32,556 nt of DNA, from positions 1 through 32,556 of the IMG/VR virus record IMGVR_UViG_3300042197_001543. One strand, 5' to 3'. Shown one piece after another: positions 4,007-31,658 of the stretch. Made by a program: the position numbers and the translations under genes. Source of the DNA: a virus. The notes beneath the pieces were generated by a model. That model did no database searches. It saw only the letters and a list, made by a program, of their open reading frames with translations, and had not been told where the DNA came from. The stretch's first letter is position 1. Each line of letters opens with the position of its first letter.

Positions 4007-4071
4007 CAGCTCACCTCGGGGTAGGTCATTGTGTCGCCGGCCAGCTCGCCTTCGTCAGCAAGAATTCTCAA
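4006..4071 (-). CDS. Possible 21-aa mini-gene (TTG start) coupled to the fibre gene
   Basis: Between the 476-aa gene and the fibre gene is a short frame starting TTG at 4071, overlapping the upstream TGA, and ending in a TGA that overlaps the fibre ATG as TGATG. It encodes RILADEGELAGD followed by TMTYPEVS. The same TGATG arrangement joins clearly real genes at 2857, 29050 and 31236, which is why I list it. A GGAAGA lies 5 bases before the TTG. It could instead be a C-terminal extension of the 476-aa protein reached by frameshifting, or simply a coupling leader. Confidence 0.3.
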   Translation of the reverse strand: MRILADEGELAGDTMTYPEVS

Positions 4072-7494: not shown

Positions 7495-8049
7495 CTACAA
7501 CATGCCTCGCAGTGAATTGCTGACCACCCGAATCTTGATGACGGTGCGGCCCGCCTCTTCGACAACCTCGGCCTCTAACAATCCTTTTGGGTCGAATTCC
7601 ACCGAAATCGGCACGGCCTCCACGACCCCGGTGGCGTGATTGAGCCGAGCATGCTGCCCGCCCATCCGCTTGACGTTGAGCGCCACCTCTGCCTGGGCTA
7701 CCTCGTTCTCGGCCCCGGTGGCGACCGACACGAACGATCCGCCCTTCACGCCTGGGGTGCTGATGGTCGGATTCGCGCTGGCCGGCTGGCTTCCCTCATA
7801 GGGATGCTGCCCGCCCCTGGGAAGCGTCGGGGTCACTGCCTCCCGAGCCGGATAGTCCAGATTGGTCAGGACATACCGTCTGGTGTCGGAGTCGATCATC
7901 CGCATGGACTTGGTCGGCGTGGCATCTGCGAGCTGCCGGCCGATGTTCGTCCTGCCGGTGGCTACATTGGCGATCGCATTGCTGATCACCTTGGCGGCGG
8001 CGGGGCTGACGCCACCCACGATAAGACTGTTTTCAAGGTCACTCGCCAT
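7495..8049 (-). CDS. Hypothetical structural-region protein
   Basis: The protein has 184 aa from ATG 8049 (MASDLENSLIVGGVSPAAAK). The N-terminal ~50 residues are helical (KVISNAIANVATGRTNIGRQ). The C-terminal half is beta-rich (ENEVAQAEVALNVKRMGG, VEAVPISVEFDPKGLLE, RTVIKIRVVS). No family is recognised. The frame is open to a GTG at 8061, but ATG 8049 has the more natural start sequence. The start overlaps the 3' end of the nozzle gene by 11 bases, so coupled expression is likely. A minor tail component is plausible. Confidence 0.6.
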   Translation of the reverse strand: MASDLENSLIVGGVSPAAAKVISNAIANVATGRTNIGRQLADATPTKSMRMIDSDTRRYVLTNLDYPAREAVTPTLPRGGQHPYEGSQPASANPTISTPGVKGGSFVSVATGAENEVAQAEVALNVKRMGGQHARLNHATGVVEAVPISVEFDPKGLLEAEVVEEAGRTVIKIRVVSNSLRGML

Positions 8050-11000
8050 CTGGCACCACACCGTTGACGGTTACGCTGTGCAGGACGAACGGCTGCTCGG
8101 CCTTGATGCTGGGGTCAGGGATCCAGAAGTTGGATCGCTTCCACGGGCTGGACTGCTCCGGTCGGGCGTATAGCTCGACTTGGAGGTGCTGGTCTTCCCC
8201 GGTCAGGTCGGTGTGGGTGCGAGCGGCGAACTTGGCCTTGGCGACCCCGGTCGCGAACCCCAACGCAGAAGCCAGCCGGTTGGTGTTGAGGACGGTGGAG
8301 GCGCTGTCCTGCCGGTGGGAAAATCCCCCTGGCCCACCAACGGATCGGCGGGCGACGTTAGGCCGCATCTCGACGCGACCGTTGAACCGCTCGATCAGCT
8401 CTACATCCTTGTCGCCAGCGGTCGGGGTGTAGACCACCGTGACCGACCGATCGATGAGGGCATCGCCGCCCTTGACGTTCTCCTCGTTGGCGAGCTGCAT
8501 GTAGCCGGTCGCCATGCGGAACGGGATATGGATGCGATACGGCTTGCGGAACGTCACATCCATTGGGGTGCCGCCCAGCTCGAGGTATGCCGTGGAGGTT
8601 CCCTCTTGATTTGTGCGGGCCGCACCGTAGAGCATCGCCACCGGGATGCCGCCTGGATGCTCCAGATAGATGTCCTTGCCGTCGATGCTGGAGACGAACG
8701 CATTGAGCGGGATAAAGTCACCGATCGCCTCCATGCCGATCTCGACCGGGGGCGGCTCGTTGGTGATGGGGCGAAGAATGTCTTCGACAACCGCGGACGC
8801 AGACTGCCCCTGCGAGAGCAGCGTGATTGGCCTGTCGATCACCACTGCCGAGCCATCAATGCTCACGATCTTCGCATTGGCAGGAATCATTGTGGATGTG
8901 ATTACCATCCCGACCCCAACGCCCACAGCATCGGAGAGCGTCAGCGCTGTGCTGGATTGACCCAGCGTTACCGTCACCGGCTTGCGGAACTCCTGCGTCA
9001 ACAGCGACCCGCCGGCCTCGGTCATCAGCGGTGAGTTGGCTTCACGCTGGAGCTGGGCCGTGCGAGCTGGGTCGAGCCTGACGAATGACTCCCCGAGAGC
9101 AACCGTGCAACCACGCACCACGCGCGGGGTCACCGAGAAGTTGGCAAAGGCCACGGCTTGGATGCCACCAGGCTCGGGCGGCCCGATGGTCAGCTTGATT
9201 GGGTAGTACTCGACGCCGCCCAGCACCCGCCCGTCGTGAGAGGCCAGCAGGAACCCGCTCTCGGTCGCCAGCTCGAGGCCGCCCTTGGCCTGCCAGCCTG
9301 GGTTCTGGATCACAACATCCACCAAGCGGCCTTCGCTCACCACCCCCTGGACGGTCGCCCCTTCGCAGTTCGGCACCGTGATCGTCGGGGCTTCACGGTA
9401 GCCCGACCCGCCCTCCGAAACGAAGCAGTCGGTGAGGCAGTCATTGGCGTGATCACTGTCGCCGCTGATCTCATAGAGGTTGCCGTCCACCGCCCCTAGC
9501 AGCATCGTGTTGATGCGGGCGTCACCGGGCCGGCCCGTGCAGGCCGCGGTCGGACTGTTGGGGTAACTCTCTGTCCACCACGTTTTGGCCTGGATGTCGA
9601 AGCACAGGGCGAGCGACGGCGTGTCGGTCGGGTTCGACTTCACGCAGCAGAAGAACCGCAGGATGTGCGTCCTGGGATCCGATTGCAGGAAGAAGGTTTC
9701 CCGCTTGGAGAAGTCGAGCAGCTCGCTGACGAAGTAATCGCGGATGGGGGTGCTGATGTCAGCCACCTCTCCGTTGCGAGCCATCGCATAGATGCCCGAC
9801 TCATCGGCGGCATAGAGGATGTTCTCATGGATATCCCAGCACCGCTGATGCAAGCAGCCGCGGTGGCTCATCATCTGGATCGTGGCGTCAATCGCAGGGT
9901 CGGTGTTGTAGCTGACCGCGTAGGTGTGCGTGTGCTGCATCGCCAAGAGCATTGAGCCGAACGGCACCAAAGCAGTGAGAACGTCGGTGCTTTTCTGGTT
10001 GTTCTGGATCGGCAGCTCATTGACATCGGGCAGGCTCTCAAACTCATCGAACTCGCTGTAGTACAGCGTGTTGGCCCCTTCGCCGCTGGTGGAGACTCCC
10101 ATCCACAAGCGATCTTGGAATGCCACGGCCACCGACATATCGCTGCGAGGCTTGCCGAATCGGTAGGCATTCACGCTGCCGTTGGGCAGGACGATCGGCA
10201 TGGCGGCATAATTGGCCCGCTCGGGATCGAACAGCTCTTCGTCGGTCAGCGTGTCTGCGCCGACGATCTGCACACCGTTGGACGATGGGATGCCGTAGGC
10301 TTCGGTGCGATAGAAGATCAACGACTGATCCGCACTCGTCCTCCATAGCTCGACCATGTCGGCCCGAGCTGGCGGCGTGGCACCGGGGAGCGACCACTCC
10401 ATCTTGGAAGAGTGCGTCCGAGCGTCGTTTGGCCCAGCGTCCACATCGGTGATCGGGGAGAGGTCACTGTAGGCAATGGGCTTGGAGAGGTCGCGCACGA
10501 TCGCCGTAGCCGACTGCCCCTGCGTGAGGGCCGTAATCTCTCGACTGATCTCGACTTGGTCGTTGGTGACACTCTTCACCAGCGAACCGAACGGCAGGGA
10601 CGAGGAGTCGAGCATCATCCCCGGCTTGATTCCCGTGGCGTCGGAGAGCGTCAGTGTGGTGGCAGATTCGGCCCTGGTCACCGTGACCGTCTTGATCACT
10701 GTCTCCGACCTGTCCACATAGCGGTAGGCACAGCGGTACTTGCCGCGCATGGTCGGCCGCATGACGGGCGTGAGCTGGGCGGCGCGGGCCGGGGTGAATA
10801 GTTCGGGGGTGAGGTTGTAGCCGAGGCCGGGATCAACAATGCGAACGGACTCGATCCGCCCGTTCTCTACCCGAGGCTCGACCGACAGGCCGTAGCCCTG
10901 ACCTCCACCTCGCACCTCAATGGTAGGCGGGGAGAAGTAGTTGCGCCCCTTGTTGCGGATCACCACGTTGGCGATGTGGCCCTGTGCCATGGCCGAGAGC

Positions 11001-13471
11001 GTCTGAAGCGTGGAGGCTGTCCACGTTACGGTCTGGGCTGCGACGGCCTGGGCGACGGTCTGCGTGAGGCCACGCCTGTAGAGGGTGAGCGTTCCCGTCT
11101 GGCCGGTCGCGTAGCCGTCGCCGGGGATCGTGACTTGCACCGGGGTGATGAGCGTCTGGGGCGGGCCGTGCGGGGTGCCGCTGTCAGGGACGTTTGCCGT
11201 CAGGCGGTACTCAATGAAGCGTCCGTTGGCGTTGTACGGGCCATGCCCCCTGCGGACGGTGTTCTTCGCCGCCGAGGTGTTGTAGTCCACATGCTGGGCA
11301 TACGGGTTGGCTTGGTATATGCGGAATGCAAACAACGCACCTTGCTGCCAGCCGCTGCCTGGGTCGGTGATCGTTATTGAGCTGGCCGTGGCCGCGGCAC
11401 CATCGGGCGTAATCCCGACGATTGGCCGGCTCGTCCCAGAACCAGGCGACCACCAACTGAGCCGATTCGTCTGGGATTCCTTGACGCTGGTTGGGCGGTT
11501 CTGCCCATCGGTCGTGACCCACGACTCGGGGGCTTCGGTCAGCGGGATCCTGACCTCGGGGGCCACCGCATCGGGGAACTGGTCAAACGGTTCGAGCGCC
11601 GTGGAGATCGCCGCACCGCCCAGACTCTTTATCGACTTTGCTCGAGCAGAGGGCCGCAGCCGGAATCGCAGATACTTGGCCGTGACGCCGCCGATAGTCT
11701 CCTGCGTGACCTCGACATCGGCTCGCGTCCACTGGCTCAAATTGCTGGAGTACACCCCGGTGCAGAACCACACCGATAGCTTGCTGTAGTCGGGGAAGTA
11801 GACATCTGCCCGCCGGCCGTTGACTGACCCCGAGAAGCCTCGCACGAACTGACTGCCGCTGGCCTGCAAGCCGCCGTAGCTCTGATTCTCGGCACTGTTG
11901 GCAACGTCGTTCAGTGATCCGCCCCAGTACTCTCCATAGAGATACCGGGCCATGTTGTCGGTGACGGCGATCGAGCTGGTGCTGGCGGTGTTGAGGGCAT
12001 AGCCCAGCGGCTGCGGGGAGAACTCGACGGTGGCGTGCGCCCCGGCCCCGGTGGACGAAGACGATGTCAGCGGGATGTTGGCATAGAACCGGCGGCGGGC
12101 CGAATCGTAGTCTGCCTTCGCCTGTCGCACCTGGGCGGGCCTGGAGAACGTCGCCTCGTAGGCAGTACTTGCGACCGGCGACCATGTGGTATCGGAGATG
12201 GTGACTGTCGAGTCGGTGGCGTTGATGGCAGTGACCGTGACCGTCGATGTGCTGAACGGCGCCATCGCTGGGTACATGGTCACCACATCACCGACCGCAA
12301 TGCCGGCCACGCTATTAAGCGTCAGTGCTGTGATGCCTACCGTCACGTTGCCGCTGGTGGTGGCGGTGGCTCGCGTAACCGTGAACTGCGTGGCGTTCAC
12401 AACCGTGGCAGTGAAAGTTGCGTCGGTTGCCGTGCCGCTGGTGAAGTCCAAGAACACGCTCTGTCCGCTCGCAAGCCGGTGGGCCACTGATGTCGTGACC
12501 GTGAGCGTTGTTCCCGTCTGCGAGTATGTTCCCGCGATAACCGGAGCCGACCGCACCTTCTCGGTCGCCACCCGCGGGGCAGACATGTAGAGGATGCTGT
12601 TGTCAGAGGTGCCGTTGGTCGCACCGTAAGTCTCGGTGGTGGTGGCAGCGGTTCCGGTGACGGTGCCGGCGGCCGTTTCGCTGAAGCCCGCCATGACCCG
12701 AGCCGCGGTGGAGATTTCACCGTAGGCCCGAAACCCGGTGCCGATCTTGTCGAGGGCAACCGACAACTCTGGCTGGGATTGATAGTTCTCCCCACCGTCG
12801 AGGATGTCCACGCCAACCACGTTGCCCTGCTGGACGATCGACTTCAGCTTGGCCGGCCGGTCGGGGGTGCCTCCAATGATCGTGATGGCGGGCGGCTCAT
12901 AGTAGGAACCGCCACCATCCTTCACATCGACGCTCTCGATGTAGTACCCGCTCCCCGAGGCGATGACCGAGGGGGCTGAGAGCGGAGCGTCCAGGCCCAT
13001 GTCCAAGGCCACGTTCGCCAAGTCGGACGGGCGGTAGAGCTTCGGCCGCACGTTGTTGCCGTAGACGATGAACATCCGGCCGTGCCTGTCCTCGGCCACG
13101 CAGAAGTTGGCAATGCTCGAGAGCGGCTGCGTGTCGATGACGCGGGACTGATTTCCCTCCACCCGCCTGACCATCCAGACATATTCGTATGGATCTTCCA
13201 GGGCGTTGATCTGACTGATGGTCAGCGTCTTCCTGACCCGTACCTTCTGGAACCAGAGGAAGTCAGAGGGAGAGCCGACCAGCGAGGCACGGCGGTAGAG
13301 GCCGTAGATGGTTTCGTCATCGTACTTGCCGTAGATCTTCTTCAGACCCTTGCGGGCAATCAGCATCCCAGGCCGGCGGGACTGAAGATTGTTGAGGACA
13401 CGCAGCTCCCCCGGTCGCAGCAGATACTGCGAGGCATCCTCATTGAAGCCCAGCCACTGTCGGATCTTCAT
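8039..13471 (-). CDS. Giant tail nozzle / stabilisation protein
   Basis: This 1810-aa protein directly follows the head-tail adaptor (ATGA overlap), the usual place of the nozzle protein (T7 gp12 / tail tubular B-like) in short-tailed phages. The N-terminus (NEDASQYLLRPGELRVLNNL, RRPGMLIARKGLKKIYG) resembles nozzle openings, and residues ~1105-1330 (FQDRLWMGVS, AADESGIYAM, FDIQAKTWWTE) have the propeller-like repeats of that family. It is about twice the usual ~800 aa. The extra length is inserted beta modules: GSGYxxxP-type segments at ~172-240, 831-890 and 1353-1395, and two copies of a VTVT..(S)TxLTLSDAxG..xGM...GQSAxAxV.D..xPI module at ~928-999 and 1498-1569. A looser third copy is near 377-435. 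It should form the distal tail tube and anchor the fibres. Confidence 0.85.
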   Translation of the reverse strand: MKIRQWLGFNEDASQYLLRPGELRVLNNLQSRRPGMLIARKGLKKIYGKYDDETIYGLYRRASLVGSPSDFLWFQKVRVRKTLTISQINALEDPYEYVWMVRRVEGNQSRVIDTQPLSSIANFCVAEDRHGRMFIVYGNNVRPKLYRPSDLANVALDMGLDAPLSAPSVIASGSGYYIESVDVKDGGGSYYEPPAITIIGGTPDRPAKLKSIVQQGNVVGVDILDGGENYQSQPELSVALDKIGTGFRAYGEISTAARVMAGFSETAAGTVTGTAATTTETYGATNGTSDNSILYMSAPRVATEKVRSAPVIAGTYSQTGTTLTVTTSVAHRLASGQSVFLDFTSGTATDATFTATVVNATQFTVTRATATTSGNVTVGITALTLNSVAGIAVGDVVTMYPAMAPFSTSTVTVTAINATDSTVTISDTTWSPVASTAYEATFSRPAQVRQAKADYDSARRRFYANIPLTSSSSTGAGAHATVEFSPQPLGYALNTASTSSIAVTDNMARYLYGEYWGGSLNDVANSAENQSYGGLQASGSQFVRGFSGSVNGRRADVYFPDYSKLSVWFCTGVYSSNLSQWTRADVEVTQETIGGVTAKYLRFRLRPSARAKSIKSLGGAAISTALEPFDQFPDAVAPEVRIPLTEAPESWVTTDGQNRPTSVKESQTNRLSWWSPGSGTSRPIVGITPDGAAATASSITITDPGSGWQQGALFAFRIYQANPYAQHVDYNTSAAKNTVRRGHGPYNANGRFIEYRLTANVPDSGTPHGPPQTLITPVQVTIPGDGYATGQTGTLTLYRRGLTQTVAQAVAAQTVTWTASTLQTLSAMAQGHIANVVIRNKGRNYFSPPTIEVRGGGQGYGLSVEPRVENGRIESVRIVDPGLGYNLTPELFTPARAAQLTPVMRPTMRGKYRCAYRYVDRSETVIKTVTVTRAESATTLTLSDATGIKPGMMLDSSSLPFGSLVKSVTNDQVEISREITALTQGQSATAIVRDLSKPIAYSDLSPITDVDAGPNDARTHSSKMEWSLPGATPPARADMVELWRTSADQSLIFYRTEAYGIPSSNGVQIVGADTLTDEELFDPERANYAAMPIVLPNGSVNAYRFGKPRSDMSVAVAFQDRLWMGVSTSGEGANTLYYSEFDEFESLPDVNELPIQNNQKSTDVLTALVPFGSMLLAMQHTHTYAVSYNTDPAIDATIQMMSHRGCLHQRCWDIHENILYAADESGIYAMARNGEVADISTPIRDYFVSELLDFSKRETFFLQSDPRTHILRFFCCVKSNPTDTPSLALCFDIQAKTWWTESYPNSPTAACTGRPGDARINTMLLGAVDGNLYEISGDSDHANDCLTDCFVSEGGSGYREAPTITVPNCEGATVQGVVSEGRLVDVVIQNPGWQAKGGLELATESGFLLASHDGRVLGGVEYYPIKLTIGPPEPGGIQAVAFANFSVTPRVVRGCTVALGESFVRLDPARTAQLQREANSPLMTEAGGSLLTQEFRKPVTVTLGQSSTALTLSDAVGVGVGMVITSTMIPANAKIVSIDGSAVVIDRPITLLSQGQSASAVVEDILRPITNEPPPVEIGMEAIGDFIPLNAFVSSIDGKDIYLEHPGGIPVAMLYGAARTNQEGTSTAYLELGGTPMDVTFRKPYRIHIPFRMATGYMQLANEENVKGGDALIDRSVTVVYTPTAGDKDVELIERFNGRVEMRPNVARRSVGGPGGFSHRQDSASTVLNTNRLASALGFATGVAKAKFAARTHTDLTGEDQHLQVELYARPEQSSPWKRSNFWIPDPSIKAEQPFVLHSVTVNGVVPDGE

Positions 13472-14721: not shown

Positions 14722-15254
14722 GCCTTGACCTTCCTGCCGTACTTGGACACCACCATCTCGCGCAGCTCACCCGACTTCATGCCGGGGTTGGTCTTCCGCT
14801 CCCGCTGCATCAGCTCCTTGGTCAGCCGCTCACTGAGGGGCTTCGACTTCGGGCGATCCATCGGAGTCCCCTTATGCTCCACCGCCCCCGACACCGACAG
14901 GTTCCGCTCCACCGCGACCCGCTTGATGTCATCGGCCCCCGACACCCATGCCTTGGGGTCGGCCGGCCCGCGGCCGTCAGCCAGCCCGCCTGCGTAGTAC
15001 TTGCCGCTGACGTTGATCCCCGCTCGCTTTGCCAGGGTCACGATGTTTTGGGCGTGATCGACGGGCATCTCGTCTAGCTGCTGGTTGTTCATCCGACCGA
15101 ACATGAAGGATCGGTCGGTGCCTCTCACTCCCGGCGGCTTCTGGAGGGCGCACATCTCGGCCCACCGCTCGGTCGCCCCCTCGGCTCGCAGCTTCAGAAA
15201 GAACTCCTCGACGCTGCGGCCCGCTGCCCGCACCTCGGGAGGAACGTCGATCAT
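14718..15254 (-). CDS. Conserved phage protein downstream of portal
   Basis: This 178-aa protein starts MIDVPPEVRAAGRSVEEFF. The segments FFLKLRAEGATERWAEMCALQ, GTDRSFMFGRMN and AKRAGINVSGKYYAGGLAD with DPKAWVSG.DDIKRVA look like a compact conserved phage protein that I have seen in structural loci but cannot assign a function. The C-terminus is basic (MKSGELREMVVSKYGRKVKA). The frame is open upstream to 15443, but that part overlaps the nuclease gene and looks non-coding; a start at ATG 15290 (MELGKPSATSKGM) is a weaker alternative. It ends ATGA with the adaptor, so it probably belongs to head completion or tail joining. Confidence 0.65.
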   Translation of the reverse strand: MIDVPPEVRAAGRSVEEFFLKLRAEGATERWAEMCALQKPPGVRGTDRSFMFGRMNNQQLDEMPVDHAQNIVTLAKRAGINVSGKYYAGGLADGRGPADPKAWVSGADDIKRVAVERNLSVSGAVEHKGTPMDRPKSKPLSERLTKELMQRERKTNPGMKSGELREMVVSKYGRKVKA

Positions 15255-15510
15255 GCCTTTTGAGGTAGCGGAAGGCTTTCCCAACTCCATCAGAATCATC
15301 TCCAAGCAGTGCGATTGCGGAGTTGCATTTCTTGCAGAGCAGTCCGCGGATCGCGTTCGTGTCGTGGCAATGATCAACGCACAGCAGCTTCTTCCGATCG
15401 CATATCTCGCACCTACCTCTATTTCTGGCCTCCAGCCGCTCAAATGCTGCTAGGGTGATCCCGTAGCGCAGCCAGAGGTTGGACTGCCGCTTCCGCAGCG
15501 CCTTGTCCAT
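14977..15510 (-). CDS. Endonuclease VII-type HNH nuclease, apparently missing its stop codon
   Basis: Residues 1-87 form a recombination endonuclease VII domain: RYGIT at 15-19, zinc pairs C34-x2-C37 and C59-x2-C62, active-site D46-H47-x-H49 and N63 straight after the second zinc pair, then LLGDD and AFRYLKRHD. Such enzymes cleave branched DNA (resolving Holliday-type junctions before packaging) or act as free-standing homing nucleases. Family members usually end just after the YL..H segment. Here the frame runs on for ~90 Arg/Gly-rich residues that are the shadow of the downstream gene. A TGA that would end it overlaps the next ATG (15251-15254) but is one base out of frame. The start is coupled to the portal stop as TAATG. 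Confidence 0.75.
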   Translation of the reverse strand: MDKALRKRQSNLWLRYGITLAAFERLEARNRGRCEICDRKKLLCVDHCHDTNAIRGLLCKKCNSAIALLGDDSDGVGKAFRYLKRHDRRSSRGAGSGPQRRGVLSEAASRGGDRAVGRDVRPPEAAGSERHRPILHVRSDEQPAARRDARRSRPKHRDPGKASGDQRQRQVLRRRAG

Positions 15511-20769: not shown

Positions 20770-21918
20770 TTAGGCAGCCGCGGTGACCGGGGCGAGCAGG
20801 AAGAAGTTTCTCGGACTCCGAAAACGGAGGTTGCCGAGAGATGAACAAGCGTACCGGTACGCCTGGGTCTCCTCGTCGAAGAACGGCCCCTCGGCTACGA
20901 AGAGCTGATTCTCGAGACACCGGAGTTCGAGGTTCCCGATCGAGAGTCCGTACCCGCGGCCGGCTGGACAAGCGTACTCCGAGCAGACCTCGACGCCGTC
21001 GAGCTGGGTGACATCGGTGAAGCCCATCGACTTCAGGCCGTTCTCCTTGCTGACTGCGATCCGTTCCTTGTCCGAGAAGGTGTTGAGGAACTGGATGTAC
21101 AACTGTCGATCCAGAACGACCATGTCGATCTGGCTCTCCTTCGTGTCGTTCCGCTTGCACTGGTGGATGCCTTCGCGGATGGCGAAGACACAGTTGGATC
21201 GCCAGTTGCGATTGCCGGCACTGTTGAAGGAGCTGGCGTTGTAGTTGATGATCACCGGAGACATGAAGTCGAGTTCTGGATCGACCGGCACGTTCGGCCA
21301 CGACCCGGTGGCAGCGTTGATGCGGCCACCGCCGTAGAAGCCCAGACGAGTCGAAAGACCCGCGTAATTGTCATCGGGATAGCCGTAGCGGTCGGCCGTG
21401 TTGCCGGTCGTGCGCTTCGCAGCCACACCCGACGCCGACTCATCGACGGTGCCATCGTAGTTGAGGAACGAGTCCATGCCGTGGAAGTCGTTCTCGGCAC
21501 CGGCAGCGTTGCCGTCCTTGTACGGCTGATACGAGAGGTGCTGCTCGAGCGACTCCTGCAACCGGCTCGCCATCTTGCCGGCGACATCGACCAGCGCCTG
21601 CTGGCCGCGGTTCTCAAGGAGTTCACGCCTGTACACCGCGTCCGTGGTCGTAAAGCCACGCCACGGCAGCTCGAGCCGCTTCCACATGTTGATGCGGCTG
21701 AACGTCCGAGGAGTGTCGCCAGTGTTCCCGGTGACGGGGGCGTTGCGAAAACGGATGTTCCAGTCGAAGCCGCGACCGGATTGGTTCATCACGACGTTGC
21801 CGGATTGTTCCAGCATCGCGAAGATCTTGAACTTGCGAAACGTCGCCAGCTCTTCTTCCCGAAGGTGCTGTACAATTGTCGTCCCGATAACCCGCGCCCA
21901 ATCCGTAGGACTCGCCAT
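20770..21918 (-). CDS. Major capsid protein
   Basis: The 382-aa product follows the scaffold gene and precedes the decoration gene, the standard capsid order. The N-terminal part (TIVQHLREEELATFRKFKIF) and residues ~60-75 (NAPVTGNTGDTPRTFSRINMW) fit an HK97-fold coat arm. Later come an E-loop-like Gly/Asn-rich region (DRYGYPDDNYAGLSTRLGFY) and a hydrophobic A-domain core (QIDMVVLDRQLYIQFLNTF). The C-terminus NLRFRSPRNFFLLAPVTAAA is also typical. It should self-assemble into the icosahedral head around the scaffold. The ATG is preceded by CGAGGAAAAC. The exact capsid subfamily cannot be told by eye. Confidence 0.82.
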   Translation of the reverse strand: MASPTDWARVIGTTIVQHLREEELATFRKFKIFAMLEQSGNVVMNQSGRGFDWNIRFRNAPVTGNTGDTPRTFSRINMWKRLELPWRGFTTTDAVYRRELLENRGQQALVDVAGKMASRLQESLEQHLSYQPYKDGNAAGAENDFHGMDSFLNYDGTVDESASGVAAKRTTGNTADRYGYPDDNYAGLSTRLGFYGGGRINAATGSWPNVPVDPELDFMSPVIINYNASSFNSAGNRNWRSNCVFAIREGIHQCKRNDTKESQIDMVVLDRQLYIQFLNTFSDKERIAVSKENGLKSMGFTDVTQLDGVEVCSEYACPAGRGYGLSIGNLELRCLENQLFVAEGPFFDEETQAYRYACSSLGNLRFRSPRNFFLLAPVTAAA

Positions 21919-21942: not shown

Positions 21943-22992
21943 TCAGGACAAACCTTGCTCTTGCAGTTGTGCCGCAAGCTTTTCAGCGAAGGTCATCGGT
22001 TTCGTGGGAACTCTCGCGTCGGTGCTGGCCGCCGTCCGCTGGCTCGCAGTTCGCATGGCCTGCGATCGCAGGAATTCCATGTTCTTTTGAGCAGCGGCGT
22101 TGGCGGGATTCACGGTCGGCTGCGGCGCCGGCTGTTGAGCCGGTGCCACATACTGCTGGACTTGCTGCGATCTCTGCATGTTCGCGAGAAGTAAGTCTCT
22201 CTCGACCATGCGAGTCGCATACTCCCAACGGGCTTTCGCCCCTTGGATGCCCAGCGACCGTGCATCCTGTATATATTTCTGGGCAAGCAGACCCTCTGGA
22301 GATGCATTGCCGTTTTGGTCGTAGAGCCAATCTGAGTTCTGCTGTTCCAGGGAGGACACGAATTGCTCCTCCTGCATGCGGCCCAGCCGCTCCTGCACGA
22401 TGCTTTCCGCCCGCTCCACGGCCACCTTTTCGACCATCGGGCCGAGGGCGGCCTGCGGATCCTCGAGGAACTTCTGGGCGAAGTTGGCCTTGTAAGCCTG
22501 GTACTCCGACAGGGCGTGTCGAGCATCCAGCGGGGCATCCTCGGAGATCACTTCCCGGCCGTGCTGGTCGCGGATCAAGTACTGCTTGTAGGCGTCACGA
22601 ACCTTCGGCGGGTTCCACCAGGGCGACTCTTCGACCTTCGGCTGCTGCTGCGGAGCCTGCTGGGCGGCTTGACGCTGCGAAGCCACCCACTGCTCGAACT
22701 GCTCTTTCTTGGAGAGATATTCGCTGGCAACCGGGATGATGCTCTGGTACTGCTGGAGCGCGTGCGTGGCCGACTGCTCACGCTGGAGAGCCTCATATAG
22801 CCGTGAGGCTATGGCTCGATCGTCGGCCCCTTGGAACTGCGGGAGCTGGCGGAACGCACCCCAGACTTCGCCGGTTCCTGCGGCGGGCGCCGATCCTTCT
22901 GCTTGGGATGGCGACGAATCAACTTCCGGCGACGGGGTGGACTCGACTGCGGCTTCAGTGGATCCAACGTCTGCGACTTCTTCTTCGGCCAT
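21943..22992 (-). CDS. Capsid scaffold protein
   Basis: This 349-aa protein is highly charged and almost all helical. The N-terminus is acidic and Ser/Pro-rich (MAEEEVADVGSTEAAVEST), and Gln-rich coiled-coil segments follow (LQREQSATHALQQYQSI, QWVASQRQAAQQAPQQQ, VERAESIVQERLGRMQEEQF). The C-terminus TFAEKLAAQLQEQGLS is an amphipathic helix that could bind the coat. This composition, with no Cys and few aromatics, directly before the major capsid gene, is the hallmark of phage scaffolds, which guide procapsid assembly and then leave. The start has a GGAGGG ribosome site 8 bases upstream. Confidence 0.82.
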   Translation of the reverse strand: MAEEEVADVGSTEAAVESTPSPEVDSSPSQAEGSAPAAGTGEVWGAFRQLPQFQGADDRAIASRLYEALQREQSATHALQQYQSIIPVASEYLSKKEQFEQWVASQRQAAQQAPQQQPKVEESPWWNPPKVRDAYKQYLIRDQHGREVISEDAPLDARHALSEYQAYKANFAQKFLEDPQAALGPMVEKVAVERAESIVQERLGRMQEEQFVSSLEQQNSDWLYDQNGNASPEGLLAQKYIQDARSLGIQGAKARWEYATRMVERDLLLANMQRSQQVQQYVAPAQQPAPQPTVNPANAAAQKNMEFLRSQAMRTASQRTAASTDARVPTKPMTFAEKLAAQLQEQGLS

Positions 22993-23043: not shown

Positions 23044-23056
23044 TGTCAGCAGTTTT
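23044..23056 (-). repeat. 13-bp motif AAAACTGCTGACA, copy 1 (candidate promoter -35 region)
   Basis: On the minus strand AAAACTGCTGACA begins at the last base of the giant gene's TAA (23056) and lies ahead of the scaffold gene. CTGACA followed by 19 bases and CAGAAT would be a weak promoter for scaffold and capsid. The identical 13-mer recurs at 27857-27869, the end of the accessory segment. Both copies sit at gene-block boundaries. Confidence 0.4.
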
Positions 23057-26000
23057 TATTGGTTCTGCCGCCACTGATCGTATGCCTGCTCCTCGGGCGT
23101 CTTCTGCTTTTTGTTCCACTGGAACTTCTGCTCGAAGAACCGATCATCCCGCTTCTGCGTGGCGATATCACGACGATCGTTCAGCTCCTCAATCGACATC
23201 GCATTCGGATCGACGCCGGGGAGGAGAGCGTTGTCCTGCTCGGGGGTTCCCATGTAGTTGAGGTAATTGCCGGGGCCGGCGAGCGTAGATCCGATGGCGA
23301 CATCGGTGAAACCGTCGATCGGCGCATCGCCAGCCTGACTCGCCACCGCAGCCCCAACACCCTTGGCCGCACCTCTGCCCAGGCCCATGCCAGCGTTGAT
23401 CATTGACCGCACCGTGCTGCCGGCCGGCTTGAATGCCCCCGCGGCCAGCCCAGCCAGCCCACCCGTCGCCGCCGACGCGGCCATGATCCCTGCCGATGGG
23501 ATGTTGCCGACCGTGTTCTGGAGGAACTGCGGCCCGTACTGGTTGTAGGCGGGCGGCCCCCAGGTCTTCTGCGTCTTGGATCCAGTGATATTGTCGAATG
23601 CCTGCTGCACGTTCGGGTAGGTGGTGGCACCCCAGGCCAGCCCCTCCTCGCGATCCTTCATGTGACCCTGCCGCTGCCAATCGAACATCTCACGGCTCAT
23701 GCCGGTTGGCAGGATCGGCTGCTCGCGGTCGAATGCCTGGTGCCGAGCCTGCTGGAAGTTCCAATCGCTCGAGTCCATGTCCTGACCGCTCAGTGCCTGC
23801 CCGAGGTTGGTGCGGGAGAAGTCAGCGAAGAAATCGTAGAGCGGCCACGAAGCCCGCCCGACTGCCGTGGACATGTCGCCGCCAGCTCGTAGGAGTCCTT
23901 GGACGTTGTTCATGCCGGTGGACGCGAACCGGGAGGTGCCGTCTTGGTCGCGGAACGCAGCCGGCTCGCCCTCTCGCTGCCTTGAGCGGAAGAAGTCGCG
24001 GTTGGCTCGGCCGAATCGACCCTCGGGGCCGGGGCTGAAGGTGAGTTCGTGGAAGTCACGGCGGGAGTCTCCATCCACAAACCCGCTCGCGAAAGCCATC
24101 GTGTTGGACATGCTGTCCGCGTAGACAGGGGCATGCTCGCCGTCGAGCGTGGTTCGCAGCAGCTCATAGCCGCGGAGGGCTTCAAAGTTCTCGGCCGTGC
24201 CGGGGGTGACCATCGACTCGGCCCAATCCCCGTGCTGCTGCTTCAGAGCGTCGAGCTGCTCCTGCGGCATGGGATCGACCTTGGCGTATTTGCCTTGGGG
24301 GGAACTCTCCTTGAGCGAACCCATCATCCGGTTGACGATGTCATCGGCCATGTAGTCGGTTTCGAGGTAGGTGCCAGAGAGCCGGCCGGCCACGCGATCC
24401 AGCACCTGCGCTCGAGCAGCGTCATCCATCCGCCCGCCGTATACATCGAGGTACTCGCCCACGAACTTGGCCGGGGTGATGCGGTCGAAATCATCGCCGT
24501 CGATGAACCTGACCCCCGTGTCCTTGGCGGCACCGACGCGGATGATCGGCTGGCCCAGCACCTCGGTCACGTTTCGCTGGAACTTCTGCTGCTCCATCGA
24601 CGGGCCTTCGGTCTTTAGCCGCTGGGCATGAGCCTGCCACTCGGTCGGGCTGATAGCCATCGAGAAGTCGTTATCCCCGACCACGCCGCGAACCAGATCC
24701 TGTGTGGTGCCACCGCTTCCGGTCGGCAGCTCACGCCGCTCGTTCACGCTCTGGGCCTGGGCCATGACCGGGGCCGCGGCCAACCCGGCTGGCATGTCGC
24801 GGAGCTGGGCCTGCATGGCGCGGACATTGTCCTCTGGCGTGGCGTTGCGCAACTTTGCTTTTATGCTTTCGTGCGATTGGTACAGATCCCGAGCCATGTC
24901 GTTGATCTGCTCGTCCGGCGCCGCGTACACCGCATCACGCGCGGCCCTTCCGCCAGCAGGGTTGTACTCGCCGCCGGCAAAATTGAGATCATCCCCAGTT
25001 GCCATGAATCCTTCGCCCGCAACGGCAGAACGCACTCTCCTAGCAAGCGATTGCTCTGGCGTCACATCAACCCATTCGCCTCCTACCCACCTCTGACCGG
25101 GAGGCTGGCCTGGTGGCAGCGGCTCAAGACGGCCGCCAACGTATTCGCTATCGCCCTCCATTTCGCCGTTGAGATAACGCCGGTAGGCGTCCCTCACTTG
25201 CTCCTCAACAGAAGGCGACGGGCCGCCATCAAACTGCGACTCATCCGGCGAGATTTCTTCTTCGGCCGGATCGCCCTCGTCCATCTCCTCGAGCCGGTTG
25301 TCCCAATCGTCCACGATCTGCTCACGCTGGGCGTCGAGCTTCTCGGCGGTCTTGAAGTCGCCCTTCTCATACGCCGAATCCACTTGCTTGGTGAGGCGGG
25401 CGATCTTCCGCTGCGTCTGCCACGGCATGGCGGCGCGGAGTGCGGCGTCGGAGTTGGGCAGGATGGGCTTGGCCTCGGCCTCGCTGCCGCCGGTTGCGAG
25501 GCCCGTGCCAGCGCCAATGGCGACGGCGGCCGGGATGCCTTTGGTGATGATGTTCTTCCGCATCTCGTCGGAGATGACACCGCGCCAGCCGGATGGAGGA
25601 GTCGCCTGCCTAGAGGCGTCGTAGGCAGCGTTGGCCTGCTTTGTCAGTGCTGTGCGTACGCGATCCAGCTCCTGCATGTCCTCGACATGCTTCATCACGG
25701 CCGGCATGATGCGATGCGCCTCTGAAAACAACTGGCTGCTGCCTGCGCCAGGCTTGCCTCGCCGCTCCCAAATGTAGTTTCCGACCGCATCCCTCAACTC
25801 GTTGGCGCGTTGAGTCCGCAGCCATTGATCATCCACATCTAGCCTTGATCTCATCACGGCATCGTTTAACGCCCGCTGGGTTCTGTCGCTTACGTCTGGA
25901 AGGCGAGCGTCACCGATGCCTTGCACGGCCTGCTGCTCCACGAGCTGCCTTATGAGAACGGCCGTGTCGTTCAACTGCCGCTCGGCCTCGTTGGCGTTCT

Positions 26001-27168
26001 GGCCTAATGCCCGCCAGTTTGCTTTAGTTGGAGCCTCGACAGTGGCAGGGCCACTCTCTCGAAACCCACCCAGCTTCCTGCCGGCCCGCTCCACCTCCGA
26101 GGGCAGAACCTTGCCGTAGCGGTGCTGGGCATGCTCAAGCGGCATCCCAACAGTCTCACTCACCCACTCTGGGGATGCGATCTCCACGGCAGCCTTGCCT
26201 TGGCGAGCAGCCTCGAGCAACAGCCGCTTCGCGTCCAACTCTGACTGCACTTGCTCCAAGGAGTACGGTCGCGTTTCGGCACCAGATTTCGCTGCCTTGA
26301 TGTTCCTGTTGTGGGCATCGCTCTGACTCTCGAGCAGCCGCAGTGCATCGCCTTGCTCTGCGAATCGCATGTGAGCAACGGCATCGCGAGTGGTGGCATT
26401 CTTGACATCCTGCGGCGCGCCCCACGGTTGCGGGTACGCCTCGTGCCAGTGATGCGGAATGTTTGGCATCCAAGACACTGGTGGCGGCGATCCTTCTGGG
26501 GCCGCGTTGTTTTCCAAAAACACAAGCTCGGTGTAGTTTGTCGCCCCGTCTGGCTTGTAGTCATGGAATCGTGTGGTGCCGTGCGGTGTTTCGGCGCCGA
26601 TTCCACCGATCGGAGCCTGCGGTGCAGTGCGGCTGGCCTCTTGATCTTTTAGATAGTCCAGATACCGGATGACGTGCGCGGCCTCCTCGTCGCTCATCTC
26701 CCATCGTTGTCGCCAATCTGGGTATGCCCTGGCAACCGCTAGCCCTTCTTGCGGTGAGTCGAATCCGAGGTTGTCCTCGCGGTTGATTGCTTCTAGTGCC
26801 GGGAGGCGAATTTCATCTGGAACCTTTTGCCGCGCAAACGACACGGCCGGCAAGTTCTCCGAAAGCCTCACTTCTCTAGTCGTGAACACCGGACTCCGCT
26901 CGCGAACCGCCGCCAGCAGCTCGTCGCGAGGGACTGTGGTGCGGCCGGCCGTGATGGAGTCGAAGTCAACCGCCTTCAGCTCCCAGCCTGGGATGCCGTC
27001 CTTGTACCGCTTCAGCAGGCCGGGGAGTTCCTGCACCCTGACGTTCTCGGGAAGCCCCTGCACAGCTCGCTCAAGGCGGGAGTAGATCCCAGGCCCAGGC
27101 TTGTGTTCCAGCAAGGCGACGATGTTGTTCGCCCGCAGGCCGCCGCGGACGGCATTAGGAGTTGCCAT
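23056..27168 (-). CDS. Giant polyvalent-type virion protein, probably injected with the DNA
   Basis: The protein has 1370 aa. Residues ~26-100 (GIYSRLERAVQGLP, LLKRYKDGIPGWELKAVDFD, VPRDELLAAVRERSPVF) match a module I know from MuF/DarB-like polyvalent proteins (F.S.L..A...LP...K..GV...E..W.GL...VTK.E.L..L). Residues ~195-290 (GTTRFHDYKPDGATNYTEL, HHWHEA, AVAHMRF, LRLLESQSDAHN) match a second polyvalent module, usually YREL..HW..NV.AH.RF..LEEIQSDWH. A Gly-zipper hydrophobic stretch lies at ~544-561, and a Gly/Ala-rich hydrophobic region at ~1225-1290. Proteins with these modules are thought to enter the host with the genome. The gene begins 14 bases inside the preceding membrane-protein gene. 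The enzymatic activity is unknown. Confidence 0.75.
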   Translation of the reverse strand: MATPNAVRGGLRANNIVALLEHKPGPGIYSRLERAVQGLPENVRVQELPGLLKRYKDGIPGWELKAVDFDSITAGRTTVPRDELLAAVRERSPVFTTREVRLSENLPAVSFARQKVPDEIRLPALEAINREDNLGFDSPQEGLAVARAYPDWRQRWEMSDEEAAHVIRYLDYLKDQEASRTAPQAPIGGIGAETPHGTTRFHDYKPDGATNYTELVFLENNAAPEGSPPPVSWMPNIPHHWHEAYPQPWGAPQDVKNATTRDAVAHMRFAEQGDALRLLESQSDAHNRNIKAAKSGAETRPYSLEQVQSELDAKRLLLEAARQGKAAVEIASPEWVSETVGMPLEHAQHRYGKVLPSEVERAGRKLGGFRESGPATVEAPTKANWRALGQNANEAERQLNDTAVLIRQLVEQQAVQGIGDARLPDVSDRTQRALNDAVMRSRLDVDDQWLRTQRANELRDAVGNYIWERRGKPGAGSSQLFSEAHRIMPAVMKHVEDMQELDRVRTALTKQANAAYDASRQATPPSGWRGVISDEMRKNIITKGIPAAVAIGAGTGLATGGSEAEAKPILPNSDAALRAAMPWQTQRKIARLTKQVDSAYEKGDFKTAEKLDAQREQIVDDWDNRLEEMDEGDPAEEEISPDESQFDGGPSPSVEEQVRDAYRRYLNGEMEGDSEYVGGRLEPLPPGQPPGQRWVGGEWVDVTPEQSLARRVRSAVAGEGFMATGDDLNFAGGEYNPAGGRAARDAVYAAPDEQINDMARDLYQSHESIKAKLRNATPEDNVRAMQAQLRDMPAGLAAAPVMAQAQSVNERRELPTGSGGTTQDLVRGVVGDNDFSMAISPTEWQAHAQRLKTEGPSMEQQKFQRNVTEVLGQPIIRVGAAKDTGVRFIDGDDFDRITPAKFVGEYLDVYGGRMDDAARAQVLDRVAGRLSGTYLETDYMADDIVNRMMGSLKESSPQGKYAKVDPMPQEQLDALKQQHGDWAESMVTPGTAENFEALRGYELLRTTLDGEHAPVYADSMSNTMAFASGFVDGDSRRDFHELTFSPGPEGRFGRANRDFFRSRQREGEPAAFRDQDGTSRFASTGMNNVQGLLRAGGDMSTAVGRASWPLYDFFADFSRTNLGQALSGQDMDSSDWNFQQARHQAFDREQPILPTGMSREMFDWQRQGHMKDREEGLAWGATTYPNVQQAFDNITGSKTQKTWGPPAYNQYGPQFLQNTVGNIPSAGIMAASAATGGLAGLAAGAFKPAGSTVRSMINAGMGLGRGAAKGVGAAVASQAGDAPIDGFTDVAIGSTLAGPGNYLNYMGTPEQDNALLPGVDPNAMSIEELNDRRDIATQKRDDRFFEQKFQWNKKQKTPEEQAYDQWRQNQ

Positions 27169-27535
27169 TTACCCACTTCCTTCGCCACATGCGGAGCCGC
27201 GCGCGGTGTTCCTTCCGCCGACGCCACCACTTCAAGATGAGATCCACGATGATCGGCAGCAGGATCTGGAGGGCCACGATCCACACGCTGCCGAATTTCT
27301 TGTCGCCATAGACCAGGGCCATGTGACGCTTGACGCTGTGACTGAGCTGGAGCATCGAAGCCATCTCGTCATCGCCGCCGGCCCGCGCAGCAGAAAGAGC
27401 CTCGTCGGGCCACTCATGGATGGCAGCGGATACGGCATCGAATACCGCTTCCTTGCCAGCCAAGTTCTTGCGAATCGGCAGCTCCGACCAGACCCATTCC
27501 TGCAATTGCTCGAGCGTGCGTGTTGGCAATGGCAT
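27155..27535 (-). CDS. Small C-terminally anchored membrane protein
   Basis: This 126-aa protein has a soluble, partly acidic N-terminal region (LEQLQEWVWSELPIRKNL, SAAIHEWPDEALSAARAGG). One hydrophobic span at ~82-101 (GSVWIVALQILLPIIVDLIL) is followed by an extremely basic tail (KWWRRRKEHRARLRMWRRK), giving a strong N-out or tail-anchored topology signal. A single span with a basic tail could suit a holin-like or virion membrane-contact protein; nothing else supports lysis. The start follows the Cys-rich gene's stop by three bases with little ribosome site, so coupled translation is likely. The 3' end overlaps the giant gene by 14 bases. Confidence 0.7.
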   Translation of the reverse strand: MPLPTRTLEQLQEWVWSELPIRKNLAGKEAVFDAVSAAIHEWPDEALSAARAGGDDEMASMLQLSHSVKRHMALVYGDKKFGSVWIVALQILLPIIVDLILKWWRRRKEHRARLRMWRRKWVNGNS

Positions 27536-28886: not shown

Positions 28887-29050
28887 CGGAACGCACCCTG
28901 CAAGATGTAGCAGCCGAAGGCGATCCAGAAGGCGCCGGCCACAAAGTCGATCATCAACTGCTGCCGCCGCCACTGCTCGCGGGCTTCCTGCCGCCCACGC
29001 TCAATCTCGGCCATGATCCGCATTAGGTCTTCGTCGCCTTCCGATGGCAT
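28883..29050 (-). CDS. 55-aa membrane protein
   Basis: ATG 29050 overlaps the methyltransferase stop as TGATG and has GGAGG six bases upstream, so I prefer it over ATG 29086. An amphipathic, charged N-terminal half (MRIMAEIERGRQEAREQWRR) precedes one hydrophobic span (MIDFVAGAFWIAFGCYILQG). It ends GAFR. The layout suits a small single-pass membrane protein with a cytoplasmic helix. The function is unknown; translational coupling on both sides (TGATG and GTGA) ties it to the methyltransferase and the nuclease-fold gene. Confidence 0.65.
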   Translation of the reverse strand: MPSEGDEDLMRIMAEIERGRQEAREQWRRQQLMIDFVAGAFWIAFGCYILQGAFR

Positions 29051-30237
29051 CACGCACCTCCTCTGGCAATCCGCTCGCCAATCCACCGCATGACCGGCAC
29101 CGCCATTGAGTTGCCCAACGCCCGGTAGCGTGGCCCGTCTGCGGCTGGCTTGCCTCGATGCGTGACCAGCGTGTAATCGTCAGGAAATCCCTGCAATCGC
29201 TCGCACTCGCGGGGCGTCAGGCGGCGAACACTTCCAGGCATTACCACGCCCAAGCCTTGATGGCTCCCGTCACTGTGGCCGCTCGACGACGGGCAATCTG
29301 TCCTATTGCCCGTCATCCATGCCGGTTGGTTGCTGTAACCGCTGTAGGTAAAACCCTCTGCCACCACCGTAGTCGCCCGCGTTTCCCCGCTATCGAAGAC
29401 ATTGAACGTCGGAGCAGCTTCCCCTGGCACCCATGTCTCATCGTCCTTGTTGCTCTGGGCGCTTTTGCTTTTGGTGAAGGGCTGGGACACACAGTTATGC
29501 ATGCGGAAGGTCGTGCCTTCGTGCGTGTAGGTGCGGCCCTCATTGGCGCTGATCGGATCGGCTAAGACACCATCTGATGTGTATGCGAGAAGTTTGCCAG
29601 CATCTAGGTCGTCGTTTGACGCTCCACCGGTGCGGCCAGAGCGCGCCGTAATTGCTCCGGTAATTCTTTCCCCCTTCTCTCGGCTCGGCGGATTATCCCG
29701 GCGCACGCTTTCGCACTCAAAAAGTACTTTTGCTGCACTTCGCATGTCTCCAAGACATCCGACAACGAACACACGGCGGCGTCTTTGGGCCACTCCGAAC
29801 CATTGAGCGTCCAGCACTCGGTAGGCGAACCCATACCCCAGTTCAGCCAACGCGCCGAGGAAGGAACCAAAATCCCTTCCTTGTCCGCTGGACAGGACAC
29901 CGGGGACGTTTTCCCAGACAACCCATTGAGGTCGGTAGCGTTGAGCGATTCCAAGAAACGTGAGCATGAGGCCGCCTCGGGGGTCGAGAAGCCCTTGTCG
30001 GAGGCCGGCGACCGAGAACGATTGGCAGGGCGATCCGCCGACCAGAAGGTCGATTGCTTCTCCATCAGTCCACTCCTTGAACTTCGTCACATCCCCGCGG
30101 TTCTCAAAACCCCATCGCTGCTCGACAACTGCGGATGGGAAGGCGTCGATCTCTGCCGTCCAGGCACATTCCCATCCAAGCGGTTGCCATGCGACATGGG
30201 CCGCACCGATGCCGTCGAATACGCTGGCGTATCTCAT
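29050..30237 (-). CDS. C5-cytosine DNA methyltransferase
   Basis: The protein has 395 aa from ATG 30237 (MRYASVFDGIGAA). All main motifs are visible: I (FDGIG, ~7-11), IV with catalytic Cys (GGSPCQSF, ~67-74), VI (WENVPG, ~108-113), VIII (QRRRRVFVV, ~151-159), IX (RRLTPRECERLQGFP) and X (RALGNSMAVP). It transfers a methyl group from SAM to C5 of cytosine in a specific DNA sequence. The target-recognition region between VIII and IX is ~180 residues, enough for a full domain; its specificity is not readable. Phages use such enzymes to hide from host restriction. It overlaps the 59-aa gene as ATGA and the membrane gene as TGATG. Confidence 0.93.
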   Translation of the reverse strand: MRYASVFDGIGAAHVAWQPLGWECAWTAEIDAFPSAVVEQRWGFENRGDVTKFKEWTDGEAIDLLVGGSPCQSFSVAGLRQGLLDPRGGLMLTFLGIAQRYRPQWVVWENVPGVLSSGQGRDFGSFLGALAELGYGFAYRVLDAQWFGVAQRRRRVFVVGCLGDMRSAAKVLFECESVRRDNPPSREKGERITGAITARSGRTGGASNDDLDAGKLLAYTSDGVLADPISANEGRTYTHEGTTFRMHNCVSQPFTKSKSAQSNKDDETWVPGEAAPTFNVFDSGETRATTVVAEGFTYSGYSNQPAWMTGNRTDCPSSSGHSDGSHQGLGVVMPGSVRRLTPRECERLQGFPDDYTLVTHRGKPAADGPRYRALGNSMAVPVMRWIGERIARGGA

Positions 30238-30413
30238 CGCTCTTGGTAGTACCGTCTGATCTGGAACTCTTCGGGTGTCCATGACCGCTTCAGCCGGCGG
30301 CAGAACACTCGGATCTGCAAGCCGTTCGGATCCGGCGCTCGCACCGAATGCCCGCCGCGATGCCCAAGGTTTTCCGGCAGCGAGTTAGTTTCCGCAGTAG
30401 CCTTCGCACTCAT
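30234..30413 (-). CDS. 59-aa basic hypothetical protein
   Basis: The frame starts at ATG 30413 behind GGGGAT at about seven bases and reads MSAKATAETNSLPENLGHRG, then VFCRRLKRSWTPEEFQIRRY. Its start lies 29 bases inside the alpha-hydrolase gene and its stop overlaps the methyltransferase ATG as ATGA, the same coupling used by clear neighbours. RSWTPEEFQ hints at a short helix-rich DNA-binding tail, but no family is recognised. The longer open frame to 30662 is shadow of the upstream gene. Confidence 0.5.
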   Translation of the reverse strand: MSAKATAETNSLPENLGHRGGHSVRAPDPNGLQIRVFCRRLKRSWTPEEFQIRRYYQER

Positions 30414-31236
30414 CTTGGAATCCCCGGAAAAGCATTTGGCCCGTCCGCTCATGCTCGGGCCGCAGATCCACTTGATCGAGCGGGACGCACTGCCTGTGAA
30501 GAAACCGCTGTGCATCCAAGCCCGTGCCGGTGCGGCAGACATGGTCGATCTCCACGGCCCTGGCCCATCCCTTGGGGTCGTGATCACGCAGCAGCCGCCA
30601 CTCCTCGTCTTTCTTGAACGGGCAGAACACGCAGGCTGACCTGGGAACTGGATGCGGAACACGCTTCTTGAGGTACTCCACGCAGTCGCCGCGGGTCATC
30701 TCCATATCCCAGAGCGGAAACTCCACCCGCCAGTTCTTGGGCTTCGCCATGAACCGCTGCTTCACGCGGATTACCCGCTTCGGCTCATCGAAGGACAGGC
30801 CCATGTACTGGACGCAGACATCGTCCTTGGGGATGCCACGCCCAGCCTCTGCCCCGAAGACTTGCCGCCGGATCGCCTGCTCGATCGGCACGACCTTGAA
30901 GTCCTTTGTGCATTGCCGCTGCACGGCCCCCATGCGGCCGTCAGGGTGCTTGGTGAAGGCTGGGATGCTGATGTAGTGGCCGCCATCTGTGCGGGCGTTG
31001 CCGTTGGCGTCTGTACCTTTATCCAAGGCATCGCCAAGCCGGCCGGCCGTGCATCGCAGGATCGGTGGGCCACCTAGAGAATCCAGCCACTCAAGGTGCT
31101 TGTAGACATCGTCTGGCTCTTCTTGGGTGTCCGCGAAGATGGCATAGTCGAATTCGTGGACTTCGCCGTCGAGGGCCATGAGGTAAAGGGTTGTGGACTG
31201 CACCCCGGCACCCAGGTTGAGAATGTGCTTTTCCAT
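30385..31236 (-). CDS. PAPS-reductase-like nucleotide alpha-hydrolase
   Basis: The protein has 283 aa from ATG 31236. The N-terminal PP-loop-type nucleotide-binding turn is NLGAGVQSTTLYLMAL (residues 7-22), with GAGVQS in place of SGGKDS, as in a phage branch of the PAPS reductase/DndC-like family. FADTQEEPDDVYKHL matches the adjacent D-T-x-x-E..V strand. Later motifs are QCTKDFKVVPIEQAIR and CVFCPFKKDEEW. Members use ATP or PAPS alpha-phosphate chemistry in sulphur transfer or nucleoside modification. The substrate here is unknown; neighbouring methyltransferase and nuclease-fold genes suggest nucleic-acid modification. It starts in a TGATG overlap. Confidence 0.78.
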   Translation of the reverse strand: MEKHILNLGAGVQSTTLYLMALDGEVHEFDYAIFADTQEEPDDVYKHLEWLDSLGGPPILRCTAGRLGDALDKGTDANGNARTDGGHYISIPAFTKHPDGRMGAVQRQCTKDFKVVPIEQAIRRQVFGAEAGRGIPKDDVCVQYMGLSFDEPKRVIRVKQRFMAKPKNWRVEFPLWDMEMTRGDCVEYLKKRVPHPVPRSACVFCPFKKDEEWRLLRDHDPKGWARAVEIDHVCRTGTGLDAQRFLHRQCVPLDQVDLRPEHERTGQMLFRGFQDECEGYCGN

Positions 31237-31658
31237 CACGCATGCTCCCGAATGCTCGACCACGAATGGCTGGAACCGTCGCTCGTCATGTAGGAATCTT
31301 GGCCTAACTCCCTCCGCAGCAGCTCGCCTAAGTCGCGGGCCGTGCTGCGGAGGGTGTATAGATCAGAGGGTAGCCGAGGGTAGTTGCGGAATGTCACCAC
31401 AAAACCCGCTTCCTCGCCGCCCCGGTAGATGTAATCAGTCGGGGAAACGGTGACACACACCGAATGCTCCGAGCAGAAACGCCGGATGATCTGCTTGGCA
31501 TGAGCGATGTCGCCAGCCATGAACAGCTCCACCGCGTGGGCAGGCTCATGCAGCGACTTCCCTTCGGCAGAGCGACTGCCTGGGGATTCGATGTGAGTTG
31601 TCCTGCCGTACATGTGGGTGTTCCCCACTCGGACGATCCTGGGCGTGTCCTCGAGCAT
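31236..31658 (-). CDS. 140-aa hypothetical protein
   Basis: From ATG 31658 the product starts MLEDTPRIVRVGNTHMYGRT. The central part (LHEPAHAVELFMAGDIAHAK, IIRRFCSEHSVCVTVSPTDY) mixes helix and strand. The C-terminal part (RSTARDLGELLRRELGQDSY) is helical. HxxAHAVELFMAGD...IIRRFC resembles small phage early proteins of unknown role. An ATG at 31685 is possible but overlaps the previous gene by 25 bases. Its stop overlaps the alpha-hydrolase ATG as TGATG, so it is in the same message. Confidence 0.6.
   Translation of the reverse strand: MLEDTPRIVRVGNTHMYGRTTHIESPGSRSAEGKSLHEPAHAVELFMAGDIAHAKQIIRRFCSEHSVCVTVSPTDYIYRGGEEAGFVVTFRNYPRLPSDLYTLRSTARDLGELLRRELGQDSYMTSDGSSHSWSSIREHA

Follow-up and report, generated by a model that had tools for sequence, protein, structure and literature searches.

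The giant gene and its product

The window analysed here, the entire IMG/VR virus record IMGVR_UViG_3300042197_001543 (32,556 bases), carries at 23056-27168 an open reading frame (ORF) that begins with ATG and encodes a protein of 1370 residues. The gene stands directly ahead of a scaffold-like gene and the major head gene, and its product is almost certainly a fusion of two parts, which we call X and the core. The original prediction, made from the sequence alone, had named both the ORF and its position before the scaffold; both are borne out, and the coding strand is the minus strand.

Long antisense frames are frequent in the window, whose sequence is GC-rich, and the coding status of the ORF was therefore tested. 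Two contigs encode full-length homologues of 1355 residues at 59% identity. A codon comparison with one such relative gave a ratio of nonsynonymous to synonymous substitution (dN/dS) of 0.23 overall, the mark of purifying selection, while the opposite (plus) strand is interrupted by stops throughout. We conclude that the ORF is a genuine gene and not a chance antisense frame. That the frame arose by chance, or that faulty assembly joined two genes, is an explanation that might draw on the abundance of such frames and on the separate occurrence of X and core elsewhere (see below), but it conflicts with the dN/dS value and is already refuted by conserved fused relatives, the same X-core fusion being found on independent contigs; we give it virtually no credence.

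X spans residues 1 to ~565 and is made up of four parts. Module A (residues 20-100, 'GIYSRLERAV...VPRDELLAAVRE'; 26869-27111, here and below on the minus strand) is near-invariant in the fused relatives, is confidently modelled as an alpha/beta unit, and is 68-75% identical between the type found in the window protein and free X proteins. The QSD module (residues 188-375; 26044-26607) is a conserved domain with a weakly acetyltransferase-like fold; in the same codon comparison the corresponding ratio of proportions (pN/pS) is 0.16, and Y212, E214, W241, H266, R268, R277, E280, Q282, S283, D284, K314, E329 and Y351 are invariant. Both motifs quoted in the original prediction lie where it placed them, inside these two conserved domains; the first module does occupy about residues 20-100, whereas the second, correctly located and indeed conserved, extends well beyond the 195-290 proposed for it. 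A helical segment follows (residues 382-520; 25609-26025), all-helical in the model and fast-evolving, with a pN/pS of about 0.5 over residues 373-520. X ends in a junction (residues 529-567; 25468-25584) that reads 'RGVISDEMRKNI', then the hydrophobic stretch GIPAAVAIGAGTGLATG, then AEAKP.

Beyond the junction lies a linker (residues 578-624, 'RAAMPWQTQRKIARLTKQVD...'; 25297-25437) that is near-identical across four fused relatives, with a dN/dS of 0.12 for residues 581-640. The core itself (residues 831-1370; 23059-24678) is all-helical and is common to proteins encoded at this site across the whole phage family. Two Gly/Ala-rich hydrophobic stretches had been predicted in the protein, and two are present, one within the junction (residues 544-560) and one within the core (residues 1226-1242; 23443-23493).

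No Pfam, PHROG or NCBIfam family matched the 1370-residue protein, and neither X nor core obtained a credible match in these libraries, whether the whole protein, its modules or its relatives were scanned. Searches with tblastn of 50,697 phage records, using the whole protein, both modules, one free X and the capsid protein as queries, gave nothing significant, and no cultured relative carrying either the giant or the capsid protein was found among those records. Contigs of GTDB genomes contain no relative of X, for which reason we name no host.

X and core as separable units

Scans with capsid proteins recovered 77 loci from the lineage of the window and 80 from a second lineage. Wherever enough upstream sequence was available, loci of the window's lineage usually have an ORF of ~400-1420 residues directly before the scaffold. 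In pairwise comparisons most of the shorter proteins from this slot proved homologous to the last ~540 residues of the window protein, whereas the N-terminal parts differed. The ~1000 residues beyond the two predicted modules had been regarded as for the most part matching nothing; most of them in fact belong to the conserved helical core of this phage family. In a few loci the ORF in the slot is unrelated to the core (L044:3761-5992, 743 residues, and L047:7651-8847, 398 residues), which indicates that the core can be lost or replaced.

The N terminus of the window type recurs in the fused relatives L002/L003, L004 and L010 and their near-copies. When module A was used as the only query, 18 loci were recovered, of which 12 do not belong to the fused group; in these 12, and in L101, module A forms part of free-standing proteins of 453-523 residues, which align along residues 1 to ~555 of the window protein and terminate immediately behind the 'SDEMRRR-hydrophobic' segment. 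A free X of 570 residues emerged from later scans and extends the range to 453-570. Free X genes are likewise upstream of the phrog_9953 head protein, and in the second lineage they precede scaffold and head protein. Since X exists elsewhere as a free gene, homology identifies the giant protein as a modular fusion of X with the core, a conclusion that we regard as close to certain.

Trees of the two modules differ in their account of the fused genes. In the module A tree the fused genes fall into a single clade (support 100/97); in the QSD tree the window and L002 group with the free L087 and L101 (support 99/97). Keeping the fused genes together in the latter tree was rejected by the approximately unbiased (AU) test at p 0.022, a value to be taken with caution because the program warns of long branches. 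With that caution, the trees suggest domain exchange between free and fused X within the fused gene.

An AlphaFold2 model of residues 1-580, based on 16 sequences, has a mean pLDDT of 74.6 and a pTM of 0.56. Nine viral models matched it at E <= 1e-3 (best E 4e-8), all of them large proteins of 763-1172 residues; seven are labelled uncultured Caudovirales phage and two are without a name. Three further matches among the first 15 are annotated 'Large polyvalent protein associated domain'. Among solved structures the best match is weak (E 0.13, probability 0.87); 13 of the 14 PDB matches listed with a probability above 0.3 are acetyltransferases, mostly p300/CBP and in two cases RimI. A profile of the QSD module showed no similarity to gp16 of Sulfitobacter phage phiGT1, which is annotated as RimL-like. 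The core, modelled from 23 sequences (pTM 0.72), is all-helical. No MuF match was obtained in the window protein or the core family, and one free X gave a minor head match at chance level (E 0.06).

Heads, slot and neighbouring genes

X is one of several heads carried by the core. The ADP-ribosyltransferase (ART) family ART-PolyVal (PF18760) was matched at the N terminus of the slot protein in L030 (E 3e-6, only narrowly over the cut-off) and L036 (E 3e-5), and in L002 and its copies by a free gene of 327 residues immediately ahead of the giant gene (E 4e-6); the family has no match anywhere in the window. A second type of head, in L014, L018 and L052, shares an H-x-GN-x-G...VIDG motif; Kinase-PolyVal (PF18762) was tried as its family and gave no match, so the label kinase-like refers to the motif alone. 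The head in L024 contains HEMRH, and free genes with HExxH stand ahead of the core in L060, L063 and L072; this HExxH family is not uniform, as L070 and L071 lack the motif.

To count effectors we built hidden Markov models for four families (X, ART, kinase-like and HExxH-type) and applied them to 140 distinct loci. Of the 58 loci that extend at least 6 kb upstream of the capsid gene, 36 have one or more of these families in that interval; downstream of the capsid gene there were none (0/106). Distinct fused proteins comprise four with X, four with ART and three with kinase-like heads; free effectors comprise 28 ART, eight X, eight HExxH-type and three kinase-like. L002 carries an ART gene between a 126-residue gene and the giant gene; the window lacks one at exactly this point, and the start contexts are near-identical. 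Judged by this gene content, the site before the scaffold is a cassette slot. The giant gene is single in the window, as predicted, but for the same reason it is not isolated: in relatives the slot holds further effector genes. Twin-arginine-like motifs (SRRDFLRG, SRREFLRG) were seen within two slot proteins, L026:3816-4874 and L033:1274-4897; for these the NCBIfam model formate_TAT (E 0.012) misses its cut-off.

A hydrophobic segment lies within the last 45 residues of 14/14 free X proteins and 19/31 free ARTs, compared with 8/249 control ORFs from the same loci. As homologues are not independent, these figures represent two families and not 33 events. The junction is the counterpart of this tail in the window protein, the equivalent residues being 544-560. 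A C-terminal tag, [LI][RK][KRQ][YF][GA], was considered as common to all effectors and rejected, being limited to ARTs and one kinase-like protein; across effectors, only the hydrophobic character of the tail is more general. The kinase-like protein in question (L090:2534-3241) ends 'LRQYGFTAPVAAGAAQ', nearly equal to the free ART tail 'LRKYGLLAPVAAGAAA', as though one enzyme head had replaced another in front of a retained tail.

Transcription on the minus strand runs from the 126-residue gene through the giant gene, scaffold-like gene, major head gene, large-terminase candidate, portal, adaptor and a gene for a protein of 1810 residues to the tail-fibre genes. The 126-residue protein (27155-27535), first in the slot, has one hydrophobic segment and a basic C terminus and is conserved in L016, L027, L030 and L049. 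The scaffold-like gene (21943-22992) is called by position, size and composition only and has no family match; the major head protein (20770-21918) belongs to phrog_9953 (E 9e-8). Pfam and PHROG scans gave no more than weak family matches for the large-terminase candidate, and identified the portal (phrog_156, E 4e-6), an SU10-type adaptor (PF24175, E 4e-6), and an Mtd_N domain and phage tail repeats in the tail-fibre genes. The 1810-residue protein (8039-13471) matches head-closure Hc2 (phrog_460, E 3e-14) and, in addition, several families of baseplate and virion structural proteins. Neither a sheath nor a tape measure was recognised in the window. Together with the adaptor, this makes the predicted short-tailed phage plausible, but not proven, because the record may be a fragment.

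Also on the minus strand are a C5 cytosine methylase (29050-30282; PF00145, E 6e-58) and a PAPS-reductase-like gene (30385-31263; phrog_424, E 5e-37). By eye, the frame at 14977-15510, located between portal and following gene and overlapping another frame, has an endonuclease VII/HNH-like N terminus (CEIC...CVDHCHDT...LLCKKCN), and a Pro-rich protein of 476 residues with one hydrophobic stretch (4068-5498) starts VAAPNAVKNAA, resembling the MATPNAVRGGL of the giant protein.

A putative effector on a carrier, and known systems

Published work describes multidomain phage effectors that are encoded next to head genes and injected (PMC5512222, PMC9503650), and we regard a polyvalent-type effector fused to a carrier as somewhat the likelier account of the 1370-residue protein. 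In its favour, besides this precedent, stand the purifying selection, the free X genes ahead of scaffold and head protein in the second lineage, the alternative heads on the core, the effector families found upstream but not downstream of the capsid gene, the ART gene present in L002 and absent from the window, the domain exchange between free and fused X, the fold matches to large phage proteins, the hydrophobic tails and the cultured parallel in phiGT1. The protein would be made late, alongside scaffold and capsid; the core would take it into the procapsid, and it would be ejected together with the DNA. X, as the head, may be an acyltransferase-type enzyme centred on the E-x-QSD motif and would then, at an early stage of infection, modify some component of the host. 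At the junction, the hydrophobic segment that forms the tail of free X and has a counterpart in free ARTs probably has a part in loading, in membrane passage, or in the separation of head and core by cleavage. Packaging and injection we consider reasonably probable; for an enzymatic effector role the chances appear evenly balanced.

Several observations weigh against this account. The fused protein is without a recognised enzyme domain. The QSD module has no Pfam or PDB sequence match, which leaves the enzyme class of X to weak fold matches without sequence support. The core has no solved structural relative among PDB folds and resembles no known ejection protein. HExxH is absent from the 1370 residues, and with it the zincin-like processing peptidase that is a common, though not obligatory, companion of polyvalent proteins.

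Two other explanations deserve consideration. The core might be an ordinary internal virion (ejection) protein that aids DNA across the envelope, with X as a structural extension that has no enzymatic effect on the host. A helical core with a Gly/Ala-rich hydrophobic stretch, encoded in the head operon, would suit such a role, as would the failure of X to match any enzyme family; yet X occurs as a free gene, the invariant polar residues of its QSD module form an enzyme-like set, and the same core bears ART-PolyVal and other enzyme-like heads, so that we judge the proposal unlikely. A little less likely again is that the slot serves as an accessory locus, expressed late, and that its unpackaged products act in the producing cell, on lysis timing, superinfection exclusion or assembly, with the 126-residue membrane protein sharing that function. 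The hydrophobic segment and basic tail of this neighbour, the effectors found as free genes without a core, and the twin-arginine-like motifs of some slot proteins are in keeping with it; it accounts poorly for effectors that are repeatedly fused to one core and confined directly before scaffold and capsid, and published precedent favours packaging of ARTs in such contexts (PMC9503650).

A broader proposition can be put forward, tentatively and as one that we think has the lesser chance of being right: the core may be a dedicated capsid-loading carrier on which these phages mount interchangeable heads (X, ART, kinase-like, peptidase-like), a counterpart of polymorphic toxins that is packaged in the phage head, with the hydrophobic tail of unrelated free effectors as a delivery tag and X as a new enzyme family around E-x-QSD. 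Polyvalent proteins are predicted to be injected, and the part responsible for entry into the virion is rarely visible. Here the rear part is constant in a fixed slot and the front varies between a new domain, ARTs, kinase-like and peptidase-like heads, free or fused; because the rear is constant and the front exchanged, carrier, junction and tail are directly testable. Relative to what was found, three things are new: X as a family, a constant helical core whose heads are exchanged within a single slot, and a hydrophobic tail common to unrelated effectors. X adds an effector-like family missing from current libraries.

The nearest known systems each share part of this arrangement. The X model recalls GNAT acyltransferases (p300/CBP, RimI) in that its PDB matches, weak as they are (E 0.13 or worse), are mostly acetyltransferases; it differs in its invariant E-x-QSD motif, in that the classical Q-x-x-G-x-G signature is not evident, and in the lack of a sequence match. 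In phage phiGT1, gp5 (MT584811) is a homologue of the free ART gene found ahead of the giant gene in L002 (32.5% identity, E 2e-30), as are relatives of BAR32501, and it too lies shortly before scaffold and capsid genes, with one small gene between ART and scaffold; phiGT1, however, has no match to X or core, and the window has no ART gene. The phiGT1 virion was studied by mass spectrometry (PMC10386132), in a report whose text, as far as available, makes no statement on gp5 as a virion component. MuF-linked head effectors likewise combine a virion-associated part with variable effector domains (PMC5512222, PMC9503650), but MuF fusions carry their enzymatic effectors at the C terminus, whereas in the present family it is the N terminus that varies, and the constant part is without a MuF match.

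The closest comparison is with polyvalent proteins, for which ART, kinase and HExxH enzyme classes have been described (Iyer et al. 2017, PMC5512222). Like these, the window protein is large and multidomain and is encoded beside late virion genes, in the window as in its relatives; modules A and QSD, the helical part and the core are all present, with no activity confidently assigned to any. The original prediction, which took the two N-terminal modules to be of polyvalent type, is thus partly supported. They form one unit, X, which also occurs free, its model matches viral proteins annotated in part with polyvalent-associated domains, and the same slot and core carry ART-PolyVal, kinase-like and HExxH domains in relatives; by sequence, however, the protein matches no described polyvalent domain, and no specific named LPD or MuF domain was matched. 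What distinguishes this system from polyvalent proteins is that its heads are exchanged on one conserved core, in a fixed slot, with one recognised head at a time.

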